Shown here in pieces: positions 1-22,035 of a DNA stretch of 25,740 bases. The translations under genes and the position numbers were made by a program. Origin of the DNA: a virus; the IMG/VR virus record IMGVR_UViG_3300025000_000391, positions 1 through 25,740 of that record; one strand, 5' to 3'. Under the pieces are notes generated by a model that was given only the letters and a program-made list of their open reading frames with translations, made no database searches and was not told the DNA's origin. Every line of letters begins with the position of its first letter. Position 1 is the stretch's first letter.

Positions 1-363
1 TATGACTTTATTAATAAATCTATCAAGGAATTATCAGAAAATAAAGAGGTTAAATATAATCAAGCCTCTGTTTTATCATCTGTCGTAAATAAGATGTTTA
101 TACCCGATCCAGATAATGAAGAGGAATATTATGAGATTGAAGGGGCATTCGAAATTGCCAAAGTGATTTATTCCCTTACTGACAATGATATTATCATCTT
201 GACAAAACAAGGAGATTCTATCCTAGAAGGATTGAGTTTCGAATTCGGTTTAATGAATGTTCAATGTCCTAATTGTAAATATCACACTCAATCCTTACCA
301 ATGGATTTAGAAGCCATACTTTTTTACAAATATCAACAGGCAATGAGTACAAAAGTCGAATAA
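1..363 (+). CDS. C-terminal part of a phage protein with a CPNC motif (possible baseplate/tail assembly protein)
   Basis: The reading frame is open from the first base, so this is the 3' part of a gene that starts left of the window; the ATG at 94 is internal. The visible 120 residues are acidic and contain one CxxC pair (CPNC) followed by a segment rich in L and F. Phage T4 gp26-type baseplate proteins also end in a CxxC-containing stretch before an aromatic helix, so a tail/baseplate assembly role is possible, but this is a weak resemblance. The next open frame (-1 relative) is open across this stop and has no SD of its own, which suggests a frameshifted longer product. Confidence 0.6.
   Translation, partial: YDFINKSIKELSENKEVKYNQASVLSSVVNKMFIPDPDNEEEYYEIEGAFEIAKVIYSLTDNDIIILTKQGDSILEGLSFEFGLMNVQCPNCKYHTQSLPMDLEAILFYKYQQAMSTKVE
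349..355 (+). promoter_or_regulatory. Candidate -1 frameshift site (ACAAAAG)
   Basis: In the zero frame the codons are ACA AAA GTC GAA TAA. A one-base backward slip of the Lys codon AAA re-pairs perfectly with AAA because the preceding base is A, and moves the ribosome into the -1 frame, which is open before and after the stop at 361. No clear stimulatory hairpin or SD was identified. This is an inference from frame overlap. Confidence 0.35.
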
Positions 364-389
364 AACAATTCTATGCCTTTCTGGATGAG

Positions 390-584
390 ATGCTTGAACT
401 TTATAAAGGGCAGCTTGATATGGATGATTTTAAATATAAATTATCGTATCGAGAGGCCCTTATTATGAGGGAAACTAGAATAGAGCGTCTTAAACGAGAA
501 CGGGAAGAAATAGAAGAGGAACGAAAGAAAGAAGCAGAAAGGATGAAGAGTGAACAAGCCAGACAATCTATATTGCGAAAGTAA
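390..584 (+). CDS. Charged coiled-coil extension, probably made by -1 frameshift from the preceding gene
   Basis: From the first ATG it would be a 64-residue protein, but no SD lies upstream of that ATG and the frame stays open well upstream of it, overlapping the previous gene. It encodes a tyrosine/acidic segment (DMDDFKYKLSYREALIMRE) followed by a highly charged helix of repeated R/K/E (about residues 28-60), which looks like a coiled coil. The arrangement, a short protein plus an out-of-frame helical extension, resembles the frameshifted tail assembly chaperone pairs of many tailed phages. Independent translation from 390 cannot be excluded. Confidence 0.55.
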   Translation: MLELYKGQLDMDDFKYKLSYREALIMRETRIERLKREREEIEEERKKEAERMKSEQARQSILRK

Positions 585-631
585 TATAGATCCCCAGCCT
601 GTTGGTAGTAAAAAAGTAAGGGGGAGTGAGA

Positions 632-1006
632 ATGGAAAACGATATGATCATTATATTCAATCAATTAACAAAGTCTGAATTGTCAGACTGTTCTCTATTT
701 GAAAACATCTTGAATTATCATTATGAGAAATTTAAATTCTTTTATTCATTAATAAGAAATCTATGTTTAAAAAATGTAGAGAAGATAATCTGTAATGAAC
801 AGACTGATAAACTTCTAATATATATACATTTTAAAACAAAACCATTATTAAATAATTTCAATAAGACATTAAAAACAGAATTGGGTTCTAATACTTACAT
901 TCACGCTAAATATTTTACTCTAGATGTCATTAAGAGTTCAAACAAAATAGATATTTCTATAATGAATAAAAATATTTCCGAGGAGCAAGAAATATATGAA
1001 GATTGA
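632..1006 (+). CDS. Hypothetical protein, 124 aa
   Basis: The start ATG at 632 was chosen because an AAGGGGG SD lies seven bases upstream; a GTG at 626 would overlap that SD. The protein is rich in I, N, K, F and Y with no motif I recognise, no signal peptide and no clear membrane segment. Its last 11 bases overlap the start of the RNA polymerase gene, so the two are likely co-translated. Function unknown. Confidence 0.7.
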   Translation: MENDMIIIFNQLTKSELSDCSLFENILNYHYEKFKFFYSLIRNLCLKNVEKIICNEQTDKLLIYIHFKTKPLLNNFNKTLKTELGSNTYIHAKYFTLDVIKSSNKIDISIMNKNISEEQEIYED

Positions 1007-4000
1007 TTTAATACCAATTAAGAAGTTTATTCAAGTTAATTCATTACAAGAAATCACTGAAATCATAATATTTGAAAAAGGTAGTATACCAACATCTGGT
1101 GGTTTACTATCTACAAATATATTCGGTGTATCTGTTAATGAACGACGAGAAACTTATGCTTATATTAAACTAAATGGGCACTTCTTACACCCATTTGTTT
1201 ATAAGTTATTAAAACGTATGAATAGAAATTTTCAATCTATTGTATATGGATCAAAGAATTTTATAATAGATAAAAATGGACAATTGGTTGAAGCTGAGGA
1301 ATCTGGTGAGACTGGATTAGAATTCTTATATAAAAATTGGGAAAAAATAAACTTTGAAAAGAATGCCAGTTCTATACGTAGTGAAAGAATTGACTTGCTG
1401 AGATCGTATGATAAAGATACTTTATTTACTGAGTACTGGATTGTAGTGCCAGCATTCTATCGTGATGTTAATTTACAATCAGCAACACAGGGTAAGATTA
1501 GTCATCATGAGATCAATGATAAGTACGCTAAATTATTAAGATTCGCAACTGTGTTGAGGAACTCCAATAATTTTGATTTTGTACTTAATGGAACTAGGGC
1601 TAAGGTTCAGGAAGTCTTAGTAGAAATTTATGATTTGCTCAAAGGTAGAATAGAAAAGAAGAATGGATTAATTAGAAAAAATTTAATGGGTAAATCGGTT
1701 GATTTCGGATCGAGGAGTGTGGATTTACTGCACGTAGCTCCTTAATTGTCGGGAATCTCCTTAGAACTTAAAGTAACAATGTTTAAGTTTGGACAATCCG
1801 CAGCCAAGATTCTATCTAATAGAATAAGGTTCAACGACTATCACACGGAAATATGGTTATATTAATTTACCGTGAGTTAGATACATTATTGTATTGAAAT
1901 GGGAGTTCAGGAATTCTTAATTTCCTGAAGATATAGTCTAGTATCCTAATGAAAATTAGGGAAGTTCATGAGAGAACTGTATAGAGTTATATTCTATATG
2001 AATAAACGAATTTCTGCACCTATATTCAAAGCAAATAAACCATCTGAGATGCAAATAGATTTTTATCATGTTGGTATTCCTCTTGCACAAACATGTTCAT
2101 TATTTACACCATTTATAATAAATTGGGTTAAAAATTTCTTCCATAGAGAATTAGAGAAGGTTGGTAATAAGTATCCTGTAAGAAATCCGGACGGTTCCAT
2201 GGGATATGTGAAATTAAAAGATCCCTCATTATATTTCAACGAAGAATATCTTAAAAAACAAATTGATAGATTCATATTTAGTGTATCCGATAGATTTACA
2301 CCAATTGAACTTCCCGTCGAGGAACCTAGATCTGATGGGAAGAAATTATATATGCGATTTATAGGAAAAGATTATAAACCAGGGGTTCCTGAAACTGAAT
2401 CTCCCTTAGTACAAAGGAAGGCAACTTGGTGTGATATTTTATATCAAGCGGCAGTTGATGTTACATCAGATAAAATGGTATTCGTTACGAGATATCCTAT
2501 TTCAGATTATTTCAGTAGCTTTCCTAACAAAATATCAGTCCTAAGTACCCACCAAACTATACCGATGTTTATTGGAAATAGAGTCTATACGAATTATCCT
2601 AGGATCGATCTTAGTTTACCTAAAGAAGAAATATCCACTCTATTTGCAGATACTGTGAGTATGTCAAATTTATATCTACCTGGTTTAAACGGAGATAAAA
2701 GTTGTTGTCTCCCTTTGCTAGAAATAGCTTAGTTAAAAATCCTGTGAACGCTTAACAGGCGGTGTATGGGTATCACAATACTCATGCTAACGGTAGAAGT
2801 GAAATAAGCATTGACGAATAAGCTTCGTAAGAGAACCTAAGGTCCTGAAATATGGATAGCTGGAAATACCGTGTCAAGCTTTAATTGATTTACGAAATTC
2901 ATATATTGTAAAAAAATACTTTTATACTAACTTATATATAATAAGGGGGGTTATTATGTATAATGATGATCTAATAATTGAATCGAAAAAACATTTTGGT
3001 GTAATATATATGTTGAGAAATAATATAGATGGTAAAATTTATATTGGTCAGACAATAAATCTACATTCACGACTTAAGGATTATAAGTATAAAAAGCTTA
3101 ATAGGAAATCGAATTTATATCATATTATAAAAATAGTTAATGAATATGGATTTAATAATTTTGATTGCAGTATAATAGACACATGCACCTCTAAAAATGA
3201 AATGAACGAAAAAGAGGTATATTGGATATCAACTTTAAAAGCAAATGATCCTAATATTGGATATAATAAGAAAACAGGTGGGGTCGGTGGAACTATGAAT
3301 AGTGAGTCTAAATATAAGATGAGTGAAAGTACAAAATTATTTAGACATTCTGAACAAACTAAACGAGATAAATCTAAACCTATAATTGCATTTAAAGATG
3401 GGTTATTTCATATATTCCAAGGAGCGAAGTCATTTGCTGATTCAATAGATAGTAATAAAAGTTCTGTAACTCATGCGGTTCGATTTGGACGTATTATTCA
3501 AGGATATTTTGTATTCTATTGTGATAAAAATTCCCGTAATGAAATATTGATTAAAATAGAGTCTAAACTAAATGATACACCCAAAATAAAAACCCCCATG
3601 TTAAAATTACAATATGTGAAAATATGTAAATTAATTAGAGAAGATGTAGAGACTAACGAAAATTACTATCATATAATTATATAGTAGTTAGTAGTGTACT
3701 GACTAATTTGTGGGTTAGTTGGGAAGTGCAGGACACCTAATTAATAATTTATTATTATACGGTGAAGATATAGTCCATGCCATATGAAAATATGGAGTTT
3801 ACATGTACGACGGTCATTGTATTGCCGTATTTTCCTTAACTGTCGGGAAACTCCTTATAGCTTCTTTAATGGAAGATTGGACAATCCGCAGCCAAGTCTC
3901 TTATATAAGAGAAAGGTTCAACGACTAGAAGTAATTCGTAGATATAGTTATATATCGAAATGGGAAAACAATAGATTTATTCTATTGAAGAGATAGTCTA

Positions 4001-4237
4001 ATATCCTATATTAATATAGGGAAGTTCATAAGAGAACTGTATGGATTAAATATCTATATGAATATTTTGGATCAGGTTACAGTAAAGGGTTTATTTAGTC
4101 AAGAAGCTAATAAAGAAGCTATTGAAATTATGACATCTAAAGCTCATATTCTAAATATCGCTGGTAGTAATATGAGAAAGACAACCAATGAGGGTGTTCA
4201 TACACTATATATGATGACACGTTTCGAAAATGATTAA
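996..4237 (+). CDS. Phage RNA polymerase beta-prime subunit, N-terminal half; four exons split by three group I introns
   Basis: Exons by inspection: 996-1720, 2009-2696, 3806-3814 and 4070-4237, giving 529 residues. Exon 1 has the beta-prime signature LIRKNLMGKSVDFGSRSV (about 225-242). Exon 2 continues with ISAPIF and ends LYLPGLNGD. Exon 3 is only TAC GAC GGT (Y-D-G). Exon 4 starts DQVTVKG and ends at YMMTRFEND. Joined, residues 469-475 read NGDYDGD, the form of the universal NADFDGD motif that holds the catalytic magnesium of multisubunit RNA polymerases. The gene stops soon after this, where normal beta-prime continues, so it is one half of a split subunit as in phiKZ-like phages; the C-terminal half is not in this window. 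Whether it belongs to the virion or the non-virion enzyme is not decidable here. An SD (GAGGAG) lies ten bases before the ATG. Confidence 0.9.
1721..2008 (+). ncRNA. Group I intron 1 of the beta-prime gene (288 nt, no ORF)
   Basis: The 5' site follows exon bases GTGT, which pair with GCAC at 1730-1733 (three pairs plus the U-G pair expected at a group I 5' splice site). The core holds AATCCGCAGCCAAG, GGTTCAACGACTA and GATATAGTCTA, typical of P4/P6/P7 strands. The last base is G2008, after which AATTTCTGC restores the frame (R-S-V-I-S-A-P). Core blocks are shared with the introns at 3815-4069, 14234-14506 and 14595-14869. Confidence 0.85.
2697..3805 (+). ncRNA. Group I intron 2 of the beta-prime gene, carrying a GIY-YIG endonuclease gene
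   Basis: Exon 2 ends GGAGAT, which pairs over six bases with GTCTCC at 2707-2712, including the terminal U-G pair. The 3' exon (ACGAC of TACGAC) can pair with GTTGT at 2701-2705, a P10 helix, which supports the 3' splice site after G3805. Conserved core strands include the segment around 2820-2880 and GAAGATATAGTCC near 3764. The sequence differs from the four short introns of this window, so it is an independent insertion. The ORF fills a peripheral loop. Confidence 0.85.
2956..3684 (+). CDS. GIY-YIG homing endonuclease within intron 2
   Basis: The 242-residue protein has the GIY-YIG core near its N-terminus (GVIYMLRN, then KIYIGQT), the conserved Arg (SRLKDYK) and the catalytic Glu (NEKEVYWI). 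The C-terminal half carries a DNA-binding repeat of the NUMOD1 kind (IIAFKDG...FADSIDSNKSSVTHAV...GYFVFY). It has its own strong SD (AAGGGGGG) so it can be translated from unspliced RNA. Such enzymes nick intronless alleles and drive intron spread. All key residues seem present, so it may be active; its target would be the catalytic-motif region of an intronless polymerase gene. Confidence 0.9.
   Translation: MYNDDLIIESKKHFGVIYMLRNNIDGKIYIGQTINLHSRLKDYKYKKLNRKSNLYHIIKIVNEYGFNNFDCSIIDTCTSKNEMNEKEVYWISTLKANDPNIGYNKKTGGVGGTMNSESKYKMSESTKLFRHSEQTKRDKSKPIIAFKDGLFHIFQGAKSFADSIDSNKSSVTHAVRFGRIIQGYFVFYCDKNSRNEILIKIESKLNDTPKIKTPMLKLQYVKICKLIREDVETNENYYHIII
3815..4069 (+). ncRNA. Group I intron 3 of the beta-prime gene (255 nt, no ORF)
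   Basis: The 5' site follows ACGGT of the 9-nt exon; ACGGT pairs with GCCGT at 3824-3828 with U-G at the splice site. Core strands GGACAATCCGCAGCCAAG, GGTTCAACGACTAG and GAGATAGTCTA are shared with intron 1 and with the two introns at 14.2-14.9 kb. The last base is G4069, after which GAT CAG GTT resumes the polymerase frame. Confidence 0.85.
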
Positions 4238-4274
4238 TGAGATAGAGCTATGTGTAAAACATAGCTCTATCTCA
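4238..4274 (+). terminator. Strong hairpin directly after the beta-prime stop
   Basis: A perfect 16-bp stem (4238-4253 with 4259-4274) with a 5-nt loop begins just after the TAA. No long T run follows, so it may act as a terminator or as a 3'-end stabilising structure. Confidence 0.7.
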
Positions 4275-4995
4275 TTATCGTATTTTAAGATAATTAAAAT
4301 ATATATTATACTAATATAAGTATTATAAAATAAGAAAGGATGGTTATAATGTGTCACCACAATAATAGTTAACAGAAATGAAGGTGATTATATAGCAAAG
4401 CCTTATTATTAACCCTTATCACTAACCTACTATATTATATATAGAAAGGTGGTGAGGCCCCTCTTAAGTTTGTAACGATACTTAATTAAAGTATTATACA
4501 ATTCTTACTAGGGAAGGTGGTGAAAAGCTGCATATATTATAATTAATATGTGGAGTTTCTAACCTCTATACTAATCGTATAAATATCATTTATTCAATTT
4601 ACTGAGTAGGAAGGGTATATAGTTTAGAGATTGTAATATAAAGTTGTTTAGACGTAGATAAATATTTGATATTTAAGACATAATTACTGAACGTGTAGAA
4701 GGAAATATAACATAGTTGTTGACGCTCTATATCATGTACAAAATATGTTAGTTTCTTAGTTTGATATAGAAAACTGATGGTGTGTTTGCCCGCGTATCTA
4801 CTTATAATATATGTAGCCCTCTATGGATGAAGGCGAAGATATTATTTTAGAAGGCGATACTATCGGAGGATTTGAGTAAACTTTAATATTACTCAAATAA
4901 AAATGGTTAAAAGTGTTTTAGGTATTTAATACATATTTTCATTAAGATGAGAATATCTATTAACAATTTAAATGACCATTATTGGCTTAAACATA
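4275..4995. other. About 720 nt with no recognisable gene
   Basis: No convincing ORF, tRNA-like T-loop or group I core was seen. There are several SD-like purine blocks: AAGGATGG followed by a seven-codon ORF (4349-4372), and AAGGTGGTGA at 4446 and 4514. One frame near the right end carries coding-like acidic sequence (EGEDIILEGDTIGGFE, ending at the TAA at 4877-4879) interrupted upstream by several stops. It could be a decayed gene, an RNA locus, or a cluster of tiny peptides. Confidence 0.4.
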
Positions 4996-5041
4996 AAAGA
5001 AACCCCATATGTGTATGAGATTACACATATGGGGTTTCTTT
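4996..5041. terminator. Bidirectional intrinsic terminator
   Basis: A stem of about 20 bp (AAAGAAACCCCATATGTGTA with its complement) and a short loop is followed on the + strand by a T-rich tract (to about 5055). On the - strand it follows the stop of the gene ending at 5046. It separates the convergent transcription units. Confidence 0.85.
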
Positions 5042-5045
5042 AGTA

Positions 5046-5402
5046 TTATTTTTTTTCTATGGCATCGGGTTCAGGTTTTTTGCGCTGGTTGGTGGGTTGT
5101 GCGATTGCGATAACCGGTTTAATCTCTTCGATTACAGGAACCACTTCCACTTTTGTCTCCACGATAGGTTCAACAATCTCTTCGATCACGTCTGGAGTGA
5201 TTTTGGCATCGAAGTTTTTAGTGTTCAGGACCACTTCAGATCCATCAGAAAGAACCTCAACAACTTTTATGTTGCGGGTAATCATGATGAAGATGGTACG
5301 AACATCCTCCATATATGGAGTCAGGATTGGACCTGAAATTCCTCCCTTTGGATATATAATATCATTAGAGAGGACTTTAACCATTTTATTAGTAACTTTC
5401 AT
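5046..5402 (-). CDS. Hypothetical protein with P/E/V-rich tail, 118 aa
   Basis: The start ATG at 5402 was chosen because an AAGGGG SD precedes it and because it lies just after the stop of the upstream gene (5428); the longer ORF start would overlap that gene. The first about 75 residues look like a compact beta-rich domain (GGISGPILTPYMEDVRTIFI). The rest is a repetitive acidic, then basic tail of V, E, P and I, probably disordered or extended. It is encoded with two upstream genes as a likely operon. Possibly virion-associated; no family recognised. Confidence 0.7.
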   Translation of the reverse strand: MKVTNKMVKVLSNDIIYPKGGISGPILTPYMEDVRTIFIMITRNIKVVEVLSDGSEVVLNTKNFDAKITPDVIEEIVEPIVETKVEVVPVIEEIKPVIAIAQPTNQRKKPEPDAIEKK

Positions 5403-5427
5403 TTTATATTCAAACCCCTTTCCGTAA

Positions 5428-5673
5428 TTATATTTTTCCTTCAGGTATATATTGTTCTTCGAGTGTAGCCAGATCGATATCCTCAGCATCTCCATACTCG
5501 GGGATTTTATCAATCAGTTTAGTAATTTCAGGATCATCTTCAGCACCATCCATTAAATCATCATTTAAGAATATATCTCGTATATCATCATCAGTAGTAT
5601 GTTTAATTGTAGCTTCAGTGACAAATTCTCTGTTTTGATTCTCTCTGATACTTTTTTTAAGATTATTTAACAT
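5428..5673 (-). CDS. Small acidic hypothetical protein, 81 aa
   Basis: A GAGGTG SD lies upstream of the ATG. The protein has a basic N-terminus (NNLKKSIREN) followed by a very acidic body (TDDDIRDIFLNDDLMDGAEDD) and no cysteine. A promoter-like AACA-N6-TA motif lies 31 bases upstream of its start. It is first in a two-gene unit with the 118-residue protein. Function unknown. Confidence 0.75.
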   Translation of the reverse strand: MLNNLKKSIRENQNREFVTEATIKHTTDDDIRDIFLNDDLMDGAEDDPEITKLIDKIPEYGDAEDIDLATLEEQYIPEGKI

Positions 5674-5703
5674 AATATAATCACCTCACATAATTCACTT
5701 ATT

Positions 5704-5715
5704 TATTTAAATGTT
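5704..5715 (-). promoter_or_regulatory. Candidate late promoter AACA-N6-TA
   Basis: On the - strand the sequence is AACATTTAAATA. The predicted start at about 5704 gives a 31-nt leader to the ATG at 5673. It matches the remembered AR9 non-virion RNA polymerase consensus AACA-N6-TW. Confidence 0.5.
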
Positions 5716-5729
5716 TTAGAAAAAAATAA

Positions 5730-6920
5730 CTAATTCGCCATGAATTTATTATAGTACACACGGAGAATAAATAATAGCATAGGAATTAGAATGAATGAAT
5801 TTAAATCGTACTCAATATAATCGTTCTCAGCCAATGGTCCCATATCAAATGTATCGATAACATTCACATTATTATTAAAATAATCAATAATTGTTTTATA
5901 ACTAACCTTATCTGATGGTATACTATTGATTATGCTATTAATAAGTATATCATCAATATATGGCAAACCAATATCTGAGAAATATATACTCTTTACATAT
6001 ACGTCATTATAGTACCTGAATATAGATGATGTATTAGCTACACTACCAGTTGCATAATTAATATGCTCTGGAATCATACTCTTTTTATTTTTTTCTAAAA
6101 TGTGATAAAATGACTTATCGTATTCAAGAGGAAATTTATGATTGTCATCCTCATTTACTAAAAACAATGTATCATATTCATATCGTTCATTAAATAACTG
6201 ATGTTTATTAATAAAGAATGTTAGATATTTATCATAGTATTTTATATGGCTGATTTCATCAATATACATAAAACTGTTATATCTTATATTATAGAACAAT
6301 ATTTTATATTTTTCACAGATTTCTTTATACATTTCATTCATAAGAATAATTTTCTCGTATATATCAGATCGAATTATACATTTCTCCTGCGTTCCTATAT
6401 TAGTTAGAACACAGTTATATACTTCTTCAACCTGTAATAATAATTGATTTTTAATATCGGGTGTTAACGATCTAATAACAAATGAAATCTTATAATAGTT
6501 ATTACTCTTAATGGTATCATAATTAACAGTTGTTACCATAAATAAATAATTACTATCTAGATATGTTATCGTAAAACAATCATTAGGAAGTGGCCGTATG
6601 GTATTAGGTAATATAACTACTTCACCATCATATGAAGTATCTAGGCCTATTTCGTCATCTGTTAAATCTAGCAGAATTGTATCAAGTCCATAAATTGGAA
6701 GATCATCAATTCGCTTAAATCGTATAGGAGAATTATAATCAATAATACGCTCCACATTTAAAAAACCTGTATCTGTTATAGATGTAATATTATTTATATT
6801 GTAATACGTTATAAATGTAGGGGTTTTATCTAGAAATCTTGAGTATTGAGAATTCATCCTCTCTTCATATTTAAAGATGTTATTGTTTATAAACCTTTTT
6901 TCATCAATTAAATGTCCCAT
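5730..6920 (-). CDS. Probable virion structural protein, 396 aa
   Basis: The ATG is preceded by an AGGTGG SD and by a promoter-like motif. The N-terminal 150 residues are beta-rich (FITYYNINNITSITDTGF, then SPIRFKRIDDLPIYGLDTI and ILPNTIRPLPNDCFTITYL), a style I associate with neck/baseplate structural proteins of jumbo phages. The middle is helical with many Y, I and N. The last about 20 residues (FILIPMLLFILRVYYNKF) are hydrophobic and could be a membrane or buried helix. Structural role is inferred from sequence style, not from a motif. Confidence 0.6.
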   Translation of the reverse strand: MGHLIDEKRFINNNIFKYEERMNSQYSRFLDKTPTFITYYNINNITSITDTGFLNVERIIDYNSPIRFKRIDDLPIYGLDTILLDLTDDEIGLDTSYDGEVVILPNTIRPLPNDCFTITYLDSNYLFMVTTVNYDTIKSNNYYKISFVIRSLTPDIKNQLLLQVEEVYNCVLTNIGTQEKCIIRSDIYEKIILMNEMYKEICEKYKILFYNIRYNSFMYIDEISHIKYYDKYLTFFINKHQLFNERYEYDTLFLVNEDDNHKFPLEYDKSFYHILEKNKKSMIPEHINYATGSVANTSSIFRYYNDVYVKSIYFSDIGLPYIDDILINSIINSIPSDKVSYKTIIDYFNNNVNVIDTFDMGPLAENDYIEYDLNSFILIPMLLFILRVYYNKFMAN

Positions 6921-6949
6921 AAATATACACCACCTATTTTAGTTATTAT

Positions 6950-6961
6950 TAGTTAATTGTT
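6950..6961 (-). promoter_or_regulatory. Candidate late promoter AACA-N6-TA
   Basis: The - strand reads AACAATTAACTA; the predicted start lies 30 nt before the ATG at 6920. Confidence 0.5.
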
Positions 6962-7027
6962 AGAGGTAAAGATATATAACCAATACTTATAAAATAGTAT
7001 AATTAATCTTCATGTGGTAATGAATTA

Positions 7028-7039
7028 AACATAATATTA
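7028..7039 (+). promoter_or_regulatory. Candidate late promoter AACA-N6-TA for the fibre module
   Basis: The + strand reads AACATAATATTA, placing the start at about 7039, 33 nt before the ATG at 7072. It is followed by the SD AAAGGAG. Confidence 0.5.
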
Positions 7040-7071
7040 AAATAACATAATACAAAGGAGTTGAAGTTAAA

Positions 7072-7512
7072 ATGGATAAAATAATTCTTATTGGTGGTGT
7101 ACCATTTAAAGCTGTAGAAAATCCTGATGGAACGCATTCTGCGGCAGCTATATTAGACGGAACTGATGCTACTGGTGTATCACAAGCAACTGGGGGTACT
7201 GGAGCCAGAGGATGGTTATCTAGTATATATAGAGCATTATGTGGTAGTACGTCATTAACTGGGGCATTAAAATTAGTCACTACTGCTGGAACCAGAACTC
7301 AATTACCTAATATACCATGTCGGGAGGTAACTGTTATCGGTTTGGATACTAATACAGGAAGTGTCTTCGCCGGTGGAGTAAATGTTTCATTGGCTGTTTA
7401 TGGGGTGAAGCTTGGTGCCAAGGAAGCATTCACATTTGCTGTAGCCAATGCTAATCAAATCTATATTGATTCATCTATAAGTGGGGAGGGAGTCAGTTAT
7501 GTCGCAATCTAG
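7072..7512 (+). CDS. Virion/fibre-associated protein with G/T-rich N-terminus, 146 aa
   Basis: AAAGGAG lies upstream of the ATG. The N-terminal part (DGTDATGVSQATGGTGARGWLSSIYRAL) resembles linker segments common in virion proteins of Gram-positive phages. The C-terminal about 70 residues (IPCREVTVIGLDTNTGSVFAGG...NQIYIDS) look like a small beta-sandwich seen at the end of many tail-tip or head-decoration proteins. It overlaps the esterase-fibre gene by 14 bases and is probably a partner of it. Base composition is less AT-rich than the flanking genes. Confidence 0.65.
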   Translation: MDKIILIGGVPFKAVENPDGTHSAAAILDGTDATGVSQATGGTGARGWLSSIYRALCGSTSLTGALKLVTTAGTRTQLPNIPCREVTVIGLDTNTGSVFAGGVNVSLAVYGVKLGAKEAFTFAVANANQIYIDSSISGEGVSYVAI

Positions 7513-9661
7513 GTATGATCCAAGTGCTGGTATTAAGAAAGATCTTATGACGTATAAGGCAGAGAATGTGCAGGAGTTAGCAACAAAAGCACGTCAAGTA
7601 GACTTGGATTTAGAAAGCGCAAGAATAACAAATCTTGCAACACTTTCGGCAGGAAGCACTACTGGAGATGCTGAGTTAATTGACGGTAGAGTTGGTGCAG
7701 ACGGAGCAACCTATGCAAATATAGGAACCTCAATAAGAGGGCAGATTGGCAAAATAGATAATTTAGTTGGCGATAAGTTGTCTGGCACAGCAACCGAATC
7801 TTATGCTGATTTAACAATTGGCACGTTTAACGATGCTGATGGTTCAGAAGTTGTGTCAAACATAAGGGCTAGGGTGATACTTGAGTCCGAATTCGTCGCT
7901 AACCTGTCCTGCAAGCTAGGTTATCAGTTTCTTATAAAAGGGTGTGATATAAAGGGAACTGCTATTACAACAATAGGTGGATGGATTGCGTCGAACGCTG
8001 TGTATATAAACCCGTTAAGCCATAAATATTTATACATTATAGTAAAAGATAATAGTGATGCGGATATAACTGGGATTGATTTAGATAGCATTTTAAGTGT
8101 TATAAGTCATAACACAGTTATATTGTCAAGGGTTGAAACTACTGTTAGGTATGGTGGGGATGTCATAAGTGCTTATGCTAATCTGATAACTGGTAATATT
8201 GATGCTACTGGTAATAAGTTTATTATCAATACGAGGGCATTTATTGTGCTTCCCACGTATAATCTAAGCGGATTTGAGGCGGCAACTGGTTTTCAGCTTG
8301 TCGTGAATGCTAATAACGATGGGTATGGACAGCCTTTTGAATTTATACAAGATTGGTGTACGGAATACGCTTTTGATAGTGATTACCTATATGTCGCAGT
8401 TATTATTAAGGCGATTGACGGTAGTAATGTTACAAATTTAACGTCAAGTCTTACTGTAAATTATTATTCTGAGAAAAGAAAACTTGCAGCATATGGAGAA
8501 GTGCAAGCACTTTCGCAAGAACTATCACTACAAGGGAATGGACAATACATCGGTAAAAATATTTTGTGGTTAGGAACATCAATTCCTGAACAAGGGCACC
8601 CTATCCTAGTCGGTACGGCAATTGGAGCAACCGTGACTAATAAAGCTGTCGGTTCGTCAATGATGCGTATAGGTGGTTCTGTTTATGATACCTCTGAGTT
8701 GGGTGATGACCTTGGAATAACTGGTCTATGGATGGCAAATGTACTGCGTACATTATCAATGACACAGGAAGAACGTAGGCGGTTGTTTGATTGCTGGAAA
8801 ACAACGGATCGTAAAGCCTATCTTATAGCAAAGGGTTATACTGAAGGAGAAGTAACAAGTGTTATTGGCTATGGGGATATGCTTGCAGATACATATGTTA
8901 GTGTAGACCCTGTAACACCTGTTATAGGGATTCCGGCTTTAAAACCAATTGACGTTTATGCGAATAATGGTGCAACATATAATAGTATGCGATGGTTGGC
9001 ATATTCTTACTGTTGGGATGATTCCATGGATATCGAAGGTGATTTAAGCATAACTGGGAAAATCACAGGTGCTATGCTTGGACGTATTGAGTCATACATT
9101 GCTACTTCGGATGCAATTGTTTTCGAGCATTTTAGGAATGATGCCACAGGAGACGCTTCTGCTTTAACCTATACTAGCGTCCCAGCAACTTCAAATGATA
9201 GGCATTATGCTGTGGGTGCGTTTATTTATCTGGTACAACAAATACGTTTACGTAAACCACGAATAAAAATACTAATGGTTGGGCATTACGACAATGACGA
9301 CAGTAGATATCAGTTAGGACATGTTTGGGAAGCAGAGGAAACGGCATCTAATTACTTTGGATTTCCACTTTATAAGCTATGGGAAGAAAGTGACGTAAGG
9401 GCAAGGACACAAATTACAACCACTGGATATTGGGATGTGTCTCATGTATGGCACGATACAGGTTATAACGGGTCGAATCATGTGGGTTCAAATCTTGAAA
9501 ATCTAAACGAAAACCCTCGTCAAGTTGATGGTGTGTGGGTGCATGACTTATCACTTCGGCAAATATGGATGTACGACGATATACATCCAATGTCCGATTC
9601 CTGTAAACAGCACTTTGCAGGCTTGATTTCAGCATGGATGAAAACCCAATCTATATTGTAG
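7499..9661 (+). CDS. Tail fibre/spike with C-terminal SGNH (GDSL-like) esterase domain, 720 aa
   Basis: The ATG at 7499 follows GGGGAGGG at good distance; a GTG at 7481 overlaps the SD and is rejected. An N-terminal segment (ELIDGRVGADGATYANIGTSIRGQ) is a familiar fibre element of Firmicutes phages. Two beta-rich repeats of about 120 residues follow (each with ...IIVKD/VIIKA... strands). From about residue 350 an SGNH hydrolase fold is suggested: ILWLGTSI supplies the nucleophile Ser (block I, GTS instead of GDS), EHFRND near 542 fits block III, and DDIHP near 692 supplies the Asp-His pair. Such domains remove acetyl groups from cell-surface glycans during adsorption. Substrate unknown. Confidence 0.8.
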   Translation: MSQSRYDPSAGIKKDLMTYKAENVQELATKARQVDLDLESARITNLATLSAGSTTGDAELIDGRVGADGATYANIGTSIRGQIGKIDNLVGDKLSGTATESYADLTIGTFNDADGSEVVSNIRARVILESEFVANLSCKLGYQFLIKGCDIKGTAITTIGGWIASNAVYINPLSHKYLYIIVKDNSDADITGIDLDSILSVISHNTVILSRVETTVRYGGDVISAYANLITGNIDATGNKFIINTRAFIVLPTYNLSGFEAATGFQLVVNANNDGYGQPFEFIQDWCTEYAFDSDYLYVAVIIKAIDGSNVTNLTSSLTVNYYSEKRKLAAYGEVQALSQELSLQGNGQYIGKNILWLGTSIPEQGHPILVGTAIGATVTNKAVGSSMMRIGGSVYDTSELGDDLGITGLWMANVLRTLSMTQEERRRLFDCWKTTDRKAYLIAKGYTEGEVTSVIGYGDMLADTYVSVDPVTPVIGIPALKPIDVYANNGATYNSMRWLAYSYCWDDSMDIEGDLSITGKITGAMLGRIESYIATSDAIVFEHFRNDATGDASALTYTSVPATSNDRHYAVGAFIYLVQQIRLRKPRIKILMVGHYDNDDSRYQLGHVWEAEETASNYFGFPLYKLWEESDVRARTQITTTGYWDVSHVWHDTGYNGSNHVGSNLENLNENPRQVDGVWVHDLSLRQIWMYDDIHPMSDSCKQHFAGLISAWMKTQSIL

Positions 9662-9684
9662 TCACAGACAAAGATGATCAATTT

Positions 9685-9717
9685 AAACTCTAGATAAAAC
9701 AAAATTATCTAGAGTTT
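9685..9717. terminator. Intrinsic terminator after the fibre gene
   Basis: A 13-bp perfect stem (AAACTCTAGATAA with its complement) is followed by ATTCTAAT. It closes the fibre transcription unit. Confidence 0.7.
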
Positions 9718-9741
9718 ATTCTAATATTGGGAGGTAATAAT

Positions 9742-9975
9742 ATGAGTTCTATCGAATCCCTAACAGAGTATTTAAAAAAACTAGATAGTAAAAAGGAAAA
9801 CCCGTTTACATTTCGTTTAAGCTCATGTTTTTTAAGTGGTTCAAATTGCAGTTGTTGTGGTGCATATAAAAATGGTAGATGCACTTATCACGATAATGAT
9901 AAATCTGAAATTGTCTTAACTAAAGCAATTGAGATATTAGGATTAGAAAATGTATTAAGTGTGTGCAGATTATAA
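9742..9975 (+). CDS. Cysteine-rich small protein, 77 aa
   Basis: The ATG at 9742 follows GGGAGGT; the TTG at 9727 precedes the SD. The middle has a cluster of Cys (SSCFLSGSNCSCCGAYKNGRCTYH), probably a zinc-binding knuckle; the C-terminal helix ends with one more Cys. It lies between two hairpins, so it may have its own transcript. Function unknown. Confidence 0.65.
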   Translation: MSSIESLTEYLKKLDSKKENPFTFRLSSCFLSGSNCSCCGAYKNGRCTYHDNDKSEIVLTKAIEILGLENVLSVCRL

Positions 9976-9995
9976 GAGCCGAAAGGCTCTTTTAT
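9974..9995 (+). terminator. Short intrinsic terminator
   Basis: AAGAGCC and GGCTCTT pair around a GAAA tetraloop and are followed by TTATT. It overlaps the stop of the Cys-rich gene. Confidence 0.75.
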
Positions 9996-10020
9996 TATGG
10001 GAAGGTGGGTGAAAAATATT

Positions 10021-10179
10021 TTGAGCAATAAAAAAATGCAAGAATATTGTTATGCCAAAAAAGATGTGAAATGTCCGAAACAGGGTGAATATTCACGACG
10101 AGGAATTTGTTTATCATGTGAGCATTGTCCCAAAATAATATGGTTTGGTTGCGGAATACCTGCAGGAATTGGTGACTAA
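10021..10179 (+). CDS. Six-cysteine mini-protein, about 52 aa
   Basis: The purine block GGAAGGTGGG at 10000-10009 serves best as SD for the TTG at 10021, although an ATG at 9997 in the same frame would give 60 residues. The protein contains YCYAKKDVKCP, then ICLSCEHCPK and FGCG, spaced like a zinc-binding fold. It lies next to another Cys-rich gene but the two are not clearly similar. Function unknown. Confidence 0.5.
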   Translation: MSNKKMQEYCYAKKDVKCPKQGEYSRRGICLSCEHCPKIIWFGCGIPAGIGD

Positions 10180-10286
10180 CTCTGTAAATTCAGATCCATC
10201 TTTGGTAGATTTAATGTCGTAGTTGACGCATTATACGACATAATTAATAAATTGTCAAATCGTGAATTATTAGTTACTTTCGTGAT

Positions 10287-10298
10287 AACAAATTATTA
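10287..10298 (+). promoter_or_regulatory. Candidate late promoter AACA-N6-TA
   Basis: AACAAATTATTA on the + strand puts a start 30 nt before the ATG at 10328. A separate TTGACG lies near 10213 inside a small GTCGTA/TACGAC inverted repeat, without a clear -10. Confidence 0.5.
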
Positions 10299-10327
10299 AT
10301 TATTTGATAACGAAAGGAAGTAATGAT

Positions 10328-10435
10328 ATGATGAATGAATTAATTTTAAACATTTATAAAGAAGAGATTTTTAATAATATATACGATAAAAATAAATATT
10401 TATCTATTGATCCAAGCAATATGGGTTGCATTTGA
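10328..10435 (+). CDS. 35-residue hypothetical protein
   Basis: It has a promoter-like motif and an AAAGGAAG SD at suitable distances, which supports translation despite its length. The product is a charged, probably helical peptide (NELILNIYKEEIFNNIY). Its stop codon lies in the 5' arm of the hairpin that covers the next gene's start, so its translation may open that hairpin. It could also be the remnant of a longer gene. Confidence 0.45.
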   Translation: MMNELILNIYKEEIFNNIYDKNKYLSIDPSNMGCI

Positions 10436-10496
10436 CGGCATTAGTATGGTATACTCTTACTAGAAATAGGAAGGAGTTGTGCCATACTATGCCGTC
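10434..10496 (+). promoter_or_regulatory. Hairpin enclosing the SD and start codon of the next small gene
   Basis: GACGGCATTAGTATGG (10434-10449) pairs with CCATACTATGCCGTC (10482-10496), with one extra base. The AGGAAGGAG SD is in the loop and the ATG at 10489 is in the 3' arm. The upstream stop lies in the 5' arm, a layout that suits translational coupling. Confidence 0.55.
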
Positions 10497-10620
10497 CCTT
10501 TATCTTGATTTACTCAAACTTGAGATTTTAGAGAATTTTCCTGAATTGAATACAGATTTGCAAGTAAATACATTAACTGGTATATTAAATAAATACAATA
10601 TCTCCATCCTGTCGTGTTAG
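10489..10620 (+). CDS. 43-residue hypothetical protein, 3' end formed by the TnpB element
   Basis: The ATG at 10489 follows AAGGAG by 12 bases with an intervening hairpin. The peptide is leucine-rich and acidic (LYLDLLKLEILENFPELNTD). The element boundary at about 10607 falls inside it, so the last four to five codons and the stop come from the element. The original C-terminus was probably different or longer. Function unknown. Confidence 0.45.
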   Translation: MPSLYLDLLKLEILENFPELNTDLQVNTLTGILNKYNISILSC

Positions 10621-10762
10621 TAGTACTTGTTAGATACCACAATAACTTAACCGTTAAGGTTCTTTAAACCGTCCGACCAACGGCGAAATCTCTATTTACG
10701 TTAGTTAATAAAGATCCTTTAAATGACTTATAAATATTAATAGAAGCATTGTTATCCCTACC
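10607..10762 (-). ncRNA. Predicted TnpB omega-RNA scaffold / right end
   Basis: In characterised TnpB systems the guide RNA overlaps the tnpB 3' end and runs to the element's right edge, with the guide being the flanking DNA. Here the segment from within the tnpB 3' end to 10607 is conserved in a second copy at 19288-19442 even where the coding frame is lost, which is the pattern of a selected RNA or end. It contains CTTAACGGTTAAG, a small hairpin. The guide would start in - strand sequence TGGAGATATTGTATTTATTT. Confidence 0.6.
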
Positions 10763-11896
10763 ATCTATATGTCCGCATATTGGACAATTAAAGATTCTTT
10801 GAGATAACTTTAACTTAGTTTTAAGTTTATGATTACATTCAGAGCATGTAATGGTACTATTAGGTAATGCTAAAATATATTCACTACCATAAAAGTGACA
10901 TTTATATTTTAACACCTGTGTAAACATAAAGTCACCAACTCTGTGTATACCTCTATTTATACGCGTATTACCATCGGACTCTGTTAATAACTCTTTAAAA
11001 CTAAACTCATCAACTATTACGTTTCTATAAGTCTTAGCTAAGAATGTAGATACCTTCTGAATATAATCCATTCTGATATTCACTATTTTGACGTGAATAT
11101 CATTAAGTTTGGTTCTCGCTTTTATATAGTTCTTTGATGGGTTACGTTTATCATACTTCTTTTTAGAAACTATTACTGAGAGTTTATCAACTTTCTTCTC
11201 TAGTTTCTTAATAATTCCCTTCGGAAATTTAGGATTTATGATATCGTTTCCATCAAAACAAACTACTGGATTATGTATTCCTAAATCTATACCTACCATA
11301 TTTTTCTTATGTTTATGCTTTGGGATATCTATTTCATAAGTGAATGATACATAATATTTAAAATTCTTCATACTAATAGTCATTGTTTTTATATCATAGT
11401 GATATAAAAAGCTTATATCTTCAAAAGTTTTCAATGGCATGTGACCGTATTCTCTATTAATAATAAAAGAGAATAACTTCTTATCAATAATTTTAACATT
11501 ACCTTTATTCGTCTTGTATATTCTAAAAGAACCATTTCCATGAATCTTTCTTTTAAAATGTAATTTACATCGTTTCTTGTCTTTAATATCTTTAAAGAAC
11601 TTATTAATAGCTATATTAAAATCACTAGCCACTTCATTCTTTATTGACTTATTATACTCTTGAGTCCATTCAAATCCCGGTTCCTTTTCTTTCTTAGAGT
11701 ATATATGAGTAATATAATCAAACTTATCAAAGAACTTCTTTAATGTTTTATCAATAATATTACCATTATGCTCTAAAAGGGTATTAAAATATTCTAAAGC
11801 ATTATTGTATATGAATCTTCTATATCCAAAGCATTTGTTTAAATATATCTCTTGTTCTTTAGTTGGTCGTATTCTCGTTTTAAAAGTCTTAATCAT
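10664..11896 (-). CDS. tnpB: TnpB RNA-guided nuclease, 410 aa
   Basis: The N-terminal part (MIKTFKTRIRPTKEQEIYLNK) is typical of TnpB/OrfB. The RuvC residues are all visible: GIDLGI with Asp204, VDEF with Glu297, and DGRDNNAS with Asp381. A zinc knuckle lies between the last two (CSEC 351-354 and CPIC 371-374). The length agrees with full TnpB, so it is likely active. The SD is AAAGGGGGTGA. In this phage it may behave like a homing-type nuclease that cuts DNA lacking the element. Confidence 0.92.
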   Translation of the reverse strand: MIKTFKTRIRPTKEQEIYLNKCFGYRRFIYNNALEYFNTLLEHNGNIIDKTLKKFFDKFDYITHIYSKKEKEPGFEWTQEYNKSIKNEVASDFNIAINKFFKDIKDKKRCKLHFKRKIHGNGSFRIYKTNKGNVKIIDKKLFSFIINREYGHMPLKTFEDISFLYHYDIKTMTISMKNFKYYVSFTYEIDIPKHKHKKNMVGIDLGIHNPVVCFDGNDIINPKFPKGIIKKLEKKVDKLSVIVSKKKYDKRNPSKNYIKARTKLNDIHVKIVNIRMDYIQKVSTFLAKTYRNVIVDEFSFKELLTESDGNTRINRGIHRVGDFMFTQVLKYKCHFYGSEYILALPNSTITCSECNHKLKTKLKLSQRIFNCPICGHIDGRDNNASINIYKSFKGSLLTNVNRDFAVGRTV

Positions 11897-12012
11897 TTAT
11901 CTTCACCCCCTTTCTTATATTATTTGTTATAAGTATAATAATATCTTATTAGGAATGAATTATTAAGACTACTGATTAAGTTATTTCTCTAAGTTTCCTT
12001 AAAGCACAGACT

Positions 12013-16578: not shown

Positions 16579-18390
16579 TTATTCAGTTGGTTGTGGAATA
16601 GATATATATTGATTACTAGATATCAGCAAAGAGATTATAGATGTTGATGCTTTTAATATCTCAATATCAGTATGGCATGAATTGATGACATCATCGGAGA
16701 ATTTCTCGTTAATCAAATCCCAACATTGTCTCCGATCAATTGCTTCGTTTACTAAACTATTAATATATACATCAGATTCATGAGTATATTTATTCTTTAA
16801 TACTTTAAAGAATACTTCTTTGAAAGCAGTATCAAATAATCTCAAAACGATTTTATCAAGTTCAGGTATACCGAAATCATTACATAATAGTTTTTGTATA
16901 GTAATAGGGATCGCCAAATTCCCACCAATATTGAATCCATAATTATATGCAGATTCACAAGATTTAACCGCATCTTCAACAAGGTCGAAGTTACTATCCT
17001 TTTCAAGTGTGGAATAACCACCGACGGATATTATTCCCATTTTTCCACGTAATTTAGAAATTCGTTGTTTGAGATCATATAGTTCCGAATTAACTACTCC
17101 GAGTTGACTGTGAGTTTCTTCAACTCGTTTATATTTAGAGACAGCATCATTCATATATCTTTGATGTTCGTCAGTATTCATCTTAAAACAATCTTTTATT
17201 AAGCTGGTTTTATCGCCGATTGAAATCTTACCAACTTCTCCAACATATTCTTCAAGATTAATTTTACCTTCAATTATATCCTCAGCCGCAGATTCATTAA
17301 TCATCATAGCTCCGGTCATCATACAGAAATCATTAAAATATTCATTATGCATATCACTTATTAACGCCACTTTTGTATACACAACTGTACATTTTTGAGT
17401 TGCTCTAAATTCTATATTACTATTACGACGGATTAGATTTAACAATTGATTATCATAATATGGAGCTATCACAACAATTCTTCTATCGGAATTAAGAGCC
17501 TCTTGTATAAGAGGTTGTATTATTTTCTCATAATGAATCATTTCAATCTTATGATTGAACATTAACATCATCGGTTTGGTAATATCACATGTACCCGCAT
17601 CATTAGTAATAAATATCGGGTCCATATAATTTATCATGCATTTGTAACCGTTAACTATCTCGAAGTTAGTTTTACCCGTTCTGGATTTATTAAATTCGAT
17701 ACTGGAATTTCCCGTATCGGCATAAATAAAGCGTATCATTTCTGAAACCTCTTTATTTCCATTCGTTGAAATTATAGCAAGTTTATAGATATCAGAAAAT
17801 TCAGGATCTTTAATAGGATCTATCTTAGTAGAATTAATTAAGATGATACCCGTTATTAGCTCAACACAATGTTTTACAACATCCATTAAATCTTTGGATC
17901 TAATAGTTTTTAATTCCTCACATTTACTAAGATTATTGAAAATTGAATCGGCTGCTACGATCGAAGATGTACTTCCATCACCGATTTTTAATATAATTTG
18001 CGAGCTTATATTAAATAACAATTGTAAGATATGATTATTAATTTCTTCAGTGAAATGGATCTTCTTCAATACCGACCAGCCGTCTTTTGTGATACACATT
18101 TCACCAAAACGTTCGATCAAAGTCGTAGATCCATAGGGACCAAGAGTTTTCACTAAAGCCGATGATACTTGACTAAATACATTGAGTATTCGCTGTTTAA
18201 ACTCGTCCTCACTCAATATATTCCATTGATACTCTGTATTTTTTTTAACTTCAGGTATGCCTCGAAACCCGAGTGGAATATATTCACCACCGCCCATTAC
18301 TACTTCATTACTCAAGATGTTCTCTCCATTTATAATCCTCCGTTTATAACTCTCACCAGTATAACCACAACCGTCAGTACAATAATCCAT
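16579..18390 (-). CDS. GroEL-like group I chaperonin, 603 aa
   Basis: Chaperonin signatures in order: ALVKTLGPYGSTTLIERFG (about 78-96), ITKDG (101-104, ATP-site Asp), IGDGSTSS (136-143, the DGTTT loop with catalytic-type Asp), an apical domain in the middle, and LVEDAVKSCESAYNYGFNIGGN near 470 with the Asp equivalent to GroEL D398. It should form a ring that folds phage proteins; phiKZ-relatives such as OBP and EL encode such single-ring chaperonins. It is about 55 residues longer at the N-terminus than GroEL, with three Cys/Gly-rich positions (YCTDGCGYTG), and lacks the GGM tail. No co-chaperonin gene is near. A promoter-like motif lies 33 nt upstream. Confidence 0.9.
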   Translation of the reverse strand: MDYCTDGCGYTGESYKRRIINGENILSNEVVMGGGEYIPLGFRGIPEVKKNTEYQWNILSEDEFKQRILNVFSQVSSALVKTLGPYGSTTLIERFGEMCITKDGWSVLKKIHFTEEINNHILQLLFNISSQIILKIGDGSTSSIVAADSIFNNLSKCEELKTIRSKDLMDVVKHCVELITGIILINSTKIDPIKDPEFSDIYKLAIISTNGNKEVSEMIRFIYADTGNSSIEFNKSRTGKTNFEIVNGYKCMINYMDPIFITNDAGTCDITKPMMLMFNHKIEMIHYEKIIQPLIQEALNSDRRIVVIAPYYDNQLLNLIRRNSNIEFRATQKCTVVYTKVALISDMHNEYFNDFCMMTGAMMINESAAEDIIEGKINLEEYVGEVGKISIGDKTSLIKDCFKMNTDEHQRYMNDAVSKYKRVEETHSQLGVVNSELYDLKQRISKLRGKMGIISVGGYSTLEKDSNFDLVEDAVKSCESAYNYGFNIGGNLAIPITIQKLLCNDFGIPELDKIVLRLFDTAFKEVFFKVLKNKYTHESDVYINSLVNEAIDRRQCWDLINEKFSDDVINSCHTDIEILKASTSIISLLISSNQYISIPQPTE

Positions 18391-19287: not shown

Positions 19288-19442
19288 TCCTGTCGTGTTA
19301 GTAGTATTAGTTAGATACCATAATAACTTAACCGTTTAAGGTTCTTTAAACCGTCCGACCAACGGCGAAAATCTTTATTTACGTTAGTCGATAAAGATTT
19401 TTTACAACTTATAAATATTATTAACAGGCTTGGTTATCGCCA
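19288..19442 (-). mobile_element. Solo right end / omega-RNA copy of the TnpB element, without tnpB
   Basis: About 150 bases match 10607-10762 nearly base for base in the central part (for example ACCGTCCGACCAACGGCG, shared exactly), including the last tnpB codons, which here contain stops. It could be an internally deleted element or a stand-alone guide RNA gene served in trans by the TnpB at 10664-11896. Its orientation matches the ssDNA-binding operon, so read-through would transcribe it up to the terminator at 19192-19225. The guide would start CGATAGAATTAAAATATCCG. Confidence 0.75.
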
Positions 19443-19473
19443 CTATTTATAAGTCTCGTATTAACACATAATT

Positions 19474-21021: not shown

Positions 21022-22035
21022 TTAATACACCACAGGCGGATAAAATTCACGATTATAGACTATATTACATCTATTACATTTGAGAACATGATTGGTTTTT
21101 ATAGTTCCATCGAGTACCTCCAATACATCACCACATTGTTTACATGTACTAACTCGGAATACCTGATTAAATTCAGCCCTAGTTAATACACTACTGCTAA
21201 TATGCGCCATTTCACTTTTGATTATATCAAAATCCCTCTTACTTTCCCAATCACGTGTTAAATGACCATTTGGATGTAATATTAGCTCATAAATAAACCA
21301 ATCAAATGAATTAGATGGTTCTAGTAAACTAGTTTTCCATATAACTTTCATACCATTTATAAGTTGGATTTTAACTCTAGATACTGTATCTGACTTAATA
21401 TATATCGGTTTGGTATTATTGAATAGGTTCTCTTCTGTTGTTGGGTCGAGTGTCATTTCAGTTGTTTTAATCTTCTTAAAGCAGATAGATGATGCCCCAT
21501 GAGATTTACCAAATTCTATATACTCAAGTATATCCCCATGATCATTGAACTGATCTATAAGAACAGCAGTAAATGTTACATCAATTCCTAAACTATTTAA
21601 TTTTGAGTTAGTTCTTATTAAAAGCTCACCCGCCGTACTATACCTTCTATTCATTAAAAGTCCATTTGTTGTAGTATAACGTCTATTCATTATACGTTCA
21701 TTGATAAAAGTATTAAAATGATGAATACTAATAGAGACATGATCTACTATATCTCCTAAATCATCAATAACGTCATACAAGTTAGATCCATTTGTTAATA
21801 AAGTTACATCTTTGAATTTAGATTTATATTTCTTTATGAGTTGCAGTAAGTCTTTTAAATACGGACTTAAAGTCGGTTCACCACCAGTTAGTTTTAAACT
21901 TAGATGACCATCAGGTAACTCACTTATTATGGATTCAACTTTAGTAATATAATTGTCACAGGCCTCAGTTTGTTTCCAGAAACAAAAACCACATTTTGCA
22001 TCACAATCCCCAGGCACAATAATCGAAAAATCCAT
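21022..22035 (-). CDS. Radical SAM protein with C-terminal zinc ribbon, 337 aa
   Basis: The iron-sulphur motif C11-DAK-C15-GF-C18 is at the N-terminus, followed by LTGGEPTL (49-56), the SAM-contacting GGE motif, and LLTNGSN, as in the MoaA/QueE-like group. Two CxxC pairs near the end (298-301 and 320-323) form a zinc ribbon or a second cluster site. Residues 116-127 and 128-139 are a tandem duplication (MNRRYTTTNGLL, MNRRYSTAGELL). GAGGAGG gives a strong start. The substrate is unknown; nucleoside or peptide modification are both possible, and no other queuosine pathway gene is in the window. Confidence 0.8.
   Translation of the reverse strand: MDFSIIVPGDCDAKCGFCFWKQTEACDNYITKVESIISELPDGHLSLKLTGGEPTLSPYLKDLLQLIKKYKSKFKDVTLLTNGSNLYDVIDDLGDIVDHVSISIHHFNTFINERIMNRRYTTTNGLLMNRRYSTAGELLIRTNSKLNSLGIDVTFTAVLIDQFNDHGDILEYIEFGKSHGASSICFKKIKTTEMTLDPTTEENLFNNTKPIYIKSDTVSRVKIQLINGMKVIWKTSLLEPSNSFDWFIYELILHPNGHLTRDWESKRDFDIIKSEMAHISSSVLTRAEFNQVFRVSTCKQCGDVLEVLDGTIKTNHVLKCNRCNIVYNREFYPPVVY
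21619..21690 (-). repeat. 36-bp in-frame tandem duplication in the radical SAM gene
   Basis: Two adjacent 36-base units both begin ATGAATAGA and end CTTTTA, with about ten differences, giving a 12-residue repeat after SISIHHFNTFINERI. Confidence 0.8.

Follow-up and report, generated by a model that had tools for sequence, protein, structure and literature searches.

How is the catalytic motif of an RNA polymerase (RNAP) assembled when its codons are spread over three exons, one of which is only nine bases long? The question is raised by a viral sequence record 25,740 bases long (the window), part of an AR9/PBS1-like jumbo phage, whose gene at 996-4237 (+) encodes a virion RNAP beta-prime N-terminal subunit. 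A preliminary description of this DNA had proposed that two separate group I introns split the motif NGDYDGD. We consider it very likely, judging from the sequence and its relatives, that each intron is removed by ordinary group I splicing, that the nine bases are carried into the message as a mini-exon, and that the motif is a hot spot for intron insertion.

Exon-intron anatomy and identity of the gene

Joining of 996-1720, 2009-2696, 3806-3814 and 4070-4237 produced a single open frame of 529 aa, reading ...LYLPGLNGD-YDG-DQVTVKG... across the motif, and defined three predicted introns, at 1721-2008, 2697-3805 and 3815-4069. The region of 2697-4069 previously assigned to the two motif introns and the exon between them was exact to the base. 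Intron 1, which lies between RSV and ISAP, is free of open reading frames (ORFs) and matched the Rfam group I intron model (RF00028) with 66.0 bits. Exon 2 ends in ...LNGD, its final GGAGAT being the P1 strand of intron 2. Intron 2 is a group I-like element of 1109 nt with a GIY-YIG homing endonuclease ORF at 2956-3684, followed by exon 3, the nine bases TACGACGGT (3806-3814), which supply Y-D-G of the motif. Intron 3 (255 nt) is ORF-free, and exon 4 runs from DQV through the stop codon. At the level of sequence, the anatomy, the reading frame and the guide pairings are established, as is the recurrence in other phages described below.

The identity of the gene was assessed by profile and pairwise comparison. 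In a profile search, residues 1-521 of the spliced product aligned with phrog_2986 (E 6.3e-96). The product also aligned over 99% of its length with intronless beta-prime proteins (BpSp, LPJP1 and others), with 39.2% identity to Bacillus phage BpSp and 37.8% to Listeria phage LPJP1. It thus has both the full-length profile match and the NxDxDGD motif expected of a virion RNAP beta-prime N-terminal subunit. Residues D471, D473, G474 and D475 are invariant among eight aligned beta-prime proteins, bearing out the earlier statement that both introns sit at the most conserved residues. NGDYDGDQ aligned with NADFDGDQ of an RNAP gamma subunit, the cyanobacterial form, with a weak local score (12.5 bits). 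Megablast of window positions 1-12000 against the phage collection returned no match, and a pattern search of genome contigs for relatives gave 20 stretches that fitted the pattern, none of which was confirmed.

The nine-base exon and its guide pairings

A three-exon search was performed in which each 5' exon had to end in U, a G had to precede each 3' exon, each intron had to have a P1 and the motif had to be in frame. The nine bases TAC GAC GGT were the sole solution in the window, and none of 200 Markov-resampled regions gave any solution. The resulting 529-aa frame matches the intronless relatives, in agreement with the exon originally suggested.

The pairings were likewise as first described. 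GGAGAT at the end of exon 2 pairs with the internal guide GTCTCC (2707-2712) over six base pairs, ending in U.G at the splice site, and the P10 strand GTTGT of intron 2 (2701-2705) can pair with ACGAC at exon bases 3807-3811. The guide GCCGT of intron 3 (3824-3828) pairs over 5 bp with ACGGT, so that its P1 lies wholly within the mini-exon and occupies the last five of the nine bases; its P10 looks weak. With the exon held fixed, random intron starts gave an equal P1 in 161 of 20000 trials for intron 2 and 340 of 20000 for intron 3. Each of these P1 helices is good and, taken singly, is not decisive. The 4-bp P1 of intron 1 was equalled in 1792 of 20000 such trials and is no evidence by itself.

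It had also been suggested that the two introns might interfere or have to splice in order. Exon bases 2-6 are taken up by the P10 of intron 2 and bases 5-9 by the P1 of intron 3; two bases are thus claimed twice, and the pairings clash there, though only while both are formed. A set order did not follow from this: whichever intron leaves first, the P1 of the other survives, and pairing alone demands no order. Splicing without a fixed order is what these pairings would predict. In Staphylococcus phage LY01, considered below, exon bases 1-3 and 5-9, as read by eye, form the equivalent pairings and have no base in common; nine-base exons thus do not share a forced order.

Introns 2 and 3 as group I introns

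Both introns have the U.G at the 5' splice site and the final G. The preliminary description had proposed a covariance-model search for group I introns, and its outcome differed between the two. Intron 3 scored 69.8 bits, above the RF00028 gathering cut-off of 50 bits, whereas intron 2 fell below it (25.6 bits, E 0.0011). An ORF-free relative of intron 2 in L031 behaved similarly (27.7 bits, E 2.7e-5). Rfam's group I model has been termed incomplete, according to the available part of PMC11878797. Intron 2 and the small staphylococcal introns escaped searches of whole loci that applied the gathering cut-off, and shorter stretches were therefore searched at an E-value threshold.

The assignment of intron 2 was made from its relatives and its core. 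Related ribozymes occupy the same insertion point in L031-L035; those in L169, L175, L179 and L190 are shifted downstream by one base, and the one in L071 lies at GD|Q. In a seven-sequence alignment of the 5' half of this family, 19 of 42 pairs had two-sided changes and 19 of 294 cells were broken, counts made on a structure taken from the same alignment and without a shuffled control; the broken cells are mostly P1/P2 positions misaligned between subgroups. The alignment thus reveals the conserved paired core with compensatory changes expected of a group I intron. A P7 can be formed between GACTA (3651-3655) and TAGTC (3771-3775), with GATCAT/ATGATC as its counterpart in L071. Taken with the Rfam match of intron 3, the pair changes and P7 of intron 2 uphold the reading of two separate group I introns in the motif.

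The ORF of intron 2 has a GIY-YIG domain (PF01541, 45.8 bits against a cut-off of 22.6, E 7.8e-12), and its 3' end overlaps the 5' strand of P7, a feature absent from the preliminary description. This enzyme may be what moves intron 2.

A sister contig and other RNA polymerase genes

A second contig of the same virus, IMGVR_UViG_3300001041_000009 (118 kb), was identical to window positions 1-8696 except for one 9-nt indel, with no mismatches, and over these 8.7 kb it has the same beta-prime arrangement. The indel is in intron 1, where the window at 1765-1773 has nine nucleotides fewer than the sister contig (L005), whose longer form is similar to related introns. The sister contig gave 16 group I matches, 11 of them over the cut-off, in a list that misses intron 3 and is thus incomplete; eight of 14 control genomes also matched, two over the cut-off.

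On the sister contig, sequence patterns written after the exons had been spotted by eye suggest mini-exons in two further RNAP motifs, one of 19 nt and one of 20 nt. The beta-prime C-terminal gene, related to the AR9/BpSp subunit, is interrupted where it aligns with BpSp GARKSLITNFKQVRNSGYLTRKL, a stretch that we take to be the bridge helix. Its 19-nt exon (L225 1324-1342) was found as one solution and lies beside an exon of about 36 nt whose start is approximate. The whole region (L225 747-1617, G001:C1:99800-101900) is probably that of the bridge helix and has three group I introns. The 20-nt exon is in the beta gene (L224 1968-1987), in LGVTRD-DSTRTAM-ASKQSKH, where the tight pattern gave one solution and a looser one 123. 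By eye, the motif in this beta-gene region (L224 1193-2275, G001:C1:17400-23600) is like the site of the Phi-PA3 gp210 intron.

In the window, the minus-strand gene at 15711-13628 (phrog_25005, RNA polymerase) has two introns around an 85-nt exon. They are group I introns at 14869-14592 and 14506-14234 (-), and the exon upstream of the second also ends in GACGGT. Eight ORF-free introns compared across these four RNAP genes, including some of those of the beta gene, were 64-80% identical to one another.

Elsewhere in the window, a 170-nt repeat occurs at 10607-10773 and 19288-19455 (86% identity). The 3' end of a TnpB-like gene (10664-11896, -) falls within one copy; the other stands alone and is perhaps a guide-RNA end. 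The window also carries a chaperonin (Cpn60/TCP-1) gene at 16579-18390 (-) and a radical SAM gene at 21022-22035 (-).

A mini-exon in Staphylococcus phage LY01 and a probable one in AH12

A nine-base exon at the same two insertion points was read by eye in the sequenced isolate LY01 (OR836606): TTTGACGGT, at L011 6583-6591. Its flanking introns, of 181 and 157 nt, scored 54.6 bits (over the cut-off of 50) and 43.4 bits (under it); they are 73% identical to each other and belong to a family different from that of the window introns. As judged from these sequences, the LY01 exon is independent of the window case. AH12 (OR455461) probably has a 15-nt exon (L012 6203-6217, read by eye) that ends at the same downstream site as the window exon. 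It lies between two small inserts that scored just 20.4 and 31.3 bits and is less secure for that reason. Unlike those of the window, the introns of the two staphylococcal phages are 149-181 nt long, of another family and ORF-free, and the mini-exons fall outside the annotated coding sequences, which are listed there as hypothetical proteins.

The automatic three-exon search gave no solution in LY01 or in AH12. For LY01 this is most likely because the search took a single mini-exon and the gene has a further upstream insertion, after SYAG. That insertion has a weak Rfam group I match (27.2 bits), and no junctions in it combined U at -1, a final G and the reading frame. For AH12 the null result is most likely explained by exons that end in C. 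In AH12, PB50 and Machias, the exon upstream of the DG|D intron ends in C opposite a guide A (GATGGC/ACCATC), replacing U.G. The C opposite A at a group I-like 5' splice site is found at L012 6217 and at about 6036 in L013/L014, in introns of only about 149 nt.

The motif as a site of repeated insertion

Related genes were collected from viral-contig scans with alignments, from the first scan and from phage records, giving 203 usable loci. Loci sharing 95% identity across 250 nt or more of the preceding exon were placed in one cluster, and repeat entries of the same contig were merged in this way. The motif was interrupted in 29 of 99 clusters, a proportion that is not that of a random sample, as relatives were drawn as 80 of 222 and 80 of 184 in two scans. 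Insertion positions for this count were entered by hand; the script left L097, L098 and L165-L167 unplaced, and L135, which is not a relative, was dropped beforehand. Seven nucleotide positions are occupied: GG|D, GD|Y, one base after GD, DY|D, YD|G, DG|D and GD|Q. Insertion was in phase 1 in five clusters and in phase 0 in the others.

Two of the 29 interrupted clusters were mixed, one holding L009 with the intact L019 and the other AH12 with PB50/Machias. One cluster holds Madawaska and the intact DC4. The co-clustering of Madawaska with DC4 and of AH12 with PB50 and Machias indicates that gain or loss has been recent. An intronless relative in this gene, L022, is 74% identical.

Twenty-seven loci were checked singly, and 17 had a P1 of 4-10 bp at an exon ending in U. 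In L071, the 5' site comes from this test (6-bp P1) and the 3' site (8753) was read from separate comparisons; this locus also has an insertion at the site equivalent to intron 1. No acceptable splice solution was found in this test for L007, L009, L013, L134 and L140. The splice sites of L134 and L140 look right by eye, and L013 is a case of C opposite A. P1 was at most 3 bp in L008, L107, L113 and L114. In L192 it was 3 bp in the right frame, and 5 bp could be had only with loss of a codon. The insert of L009 had no Rfam match, and that of L114 had a partial one (36.6 bits). In view of these splice-solution, P1 and Rfam outcomes, L008, L009, L107 and L113 are claimed as interruptions and not as proven group I introns.

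Alternative explanations

Exon 2 joined straight to exon 4 is in frame, and the mini-exon might frequently be skipped. The product, LNGD-DQV without Y-D-G, should be catalytically dead, and splicing would then set the amount of active polymerase. Skipping has precedents, seen for SIOphi in a splicing assay and for Twort orf142 as cited in the same source (PMC11878797, available in part). Given this precedent, the full product may be just a part of the mRNA. In LY01 the equivalent codons are likewise retained as an exon at this site, which suggests selection for inclusion. The exon boundaries differ in AH12. We regard frequent skipping as improbable. It is less probable still that 2697-4069 is a single composite intron, excised whole, with TACGACGGT coincidental: the outer junctions alone do preserve the frame, but the product would lose the invariant D473 and G474. 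Moreover, the nine bases come after a final G, and the intron that follows them has a P1 and an Rfam match of its own. MarsHill, PB50, Machias, phiR1-37 and others have an insertion at DG|D only, and the resampled regions were devoid of three-exon solutions.

The window gene could in principle be a decayed copy, with a working beta-prime gene elsewhere. The genome is evidently incomplete, as related isolates have 223-269 kb, against 25.7 kb for the window record and 118 kb for the sister contig. A complete beta-prime gene elsewhere, which the preliminary description had named, together with mature mRNA that retains the region, as an observation that would count against its reading, was sought in the 118-kb contig and not found there, and all exons of the window gene are open and its motif complete; decay is very unlikely, if marginally less so than the composite intron. 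The metagenomic origin of the record also raises the matter of an assembly artefact. This is scarcely credible, as two contigs agree across 8.7 kb save for the indel in intron 1 and an isolate, LY01, has the same structure.

Discussion

We favour, then, ordinary group I splicing of each intron. Each intron would fold its own catalytic core, its guide would pair with the exon bases just upstream to form a P1 ending in U.G, and excision is predicted to occur in two guanosine-dependent steps. All introns of the gene are expected to splice, the nine bases being kept as a mini-exon to give the mature message NGD-YDG-DQV. The arrangement most likely arose as mobile group I introns repeatedly invaded those RNAP codons that are best conserved. 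The motif codons GGN GAY TAY GAY GGN GAY are nearly fixed, which would make the motif a conserved target for intron mobility and hence a hot spot. These codons can also end in U, and such a U would supply position -1 as needed for group I splicing, which may be a further reason for the hot spot.

The nine-base spacing of the two introns may have come about by homing at low homology or by reverse splicing. Work on phage T4 reportedly points to a further route, DNA repair that needs hardly any exon homology. A more far-reaching idea is that an ORF-free group I family spread through four RNAP genes of one phage by reverse splicing, at the level of RNA, into short sites that match the guide. It would have landed time after time in the catalytic motifs, leaving the 9-, 19- and 20-nt mini-exons, and the splicing load would gate how much active polymerase is produced. 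Paralogy is the whole basis of this idea, and we consider it doubtful.

Group I and group II introns have been reported in this beta-prime gene (PMC12350094). To judge from the Fig. 5A legend of that paper, AR9/PBS1 share with the window a group I intron in the same motif of the same gene; unlike in the window, the exons are long, with no mini-exon among them, and the single group I intron of the motif is preceded by a group II intron. We found the AR9 motif intron at GDYD|GD, with an Rfam score of 86.7 bits. The upstream group II intron, already reported in PMC12350094, is at L007 5220-6717. Phi-PA3 gp210, described in the portion of PMC11620839 available as a vRNAP beta intron endonuclease that serves as a weapon by cutting a competitor's intronless allele, likewise places a homing endonuclease, along with a putative group I intron, at a conserved motif of RNAP. 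It differs in being in beta, not beta-prime, in being HNH, not GIY-YIG, and in having a single intron. A small exon (phiNIT1 rNDPL) and exon skipping (SIOphi, Twort orf142) are known from closely spaced phage group I introns, in other genes and with neither an exon size nor a catalytic loop mentioned in the accessible part of PMC11878797. Neither a nine-base exon nor a multi-position hot spot at this motif is described in the available parts of PMC12350094, PMC11620839, PMC11878797, PMC7598289, PMC12908238, PMC10638138, PMC5312081 and PMC5759034; the papers on the AR9 genome, on MarsHill/Madawaska/Machias and on Twort could contain such a description.

The position of the LY01 and AH12 mini-exons outside annotated coding sequences shows how easily jumbo-phage RNAP subunits are mis-annotated. 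The guide pairing of intron 3 fills over half of the nine-base exon, and the locus thereby tests the minimum spacing at which two group I introns can be spliced correctly. Seven insertion positions within 15 nt of the motif, together with an intronless close relative, form a natural series in which DNA homing may be set against RNA guide matching.
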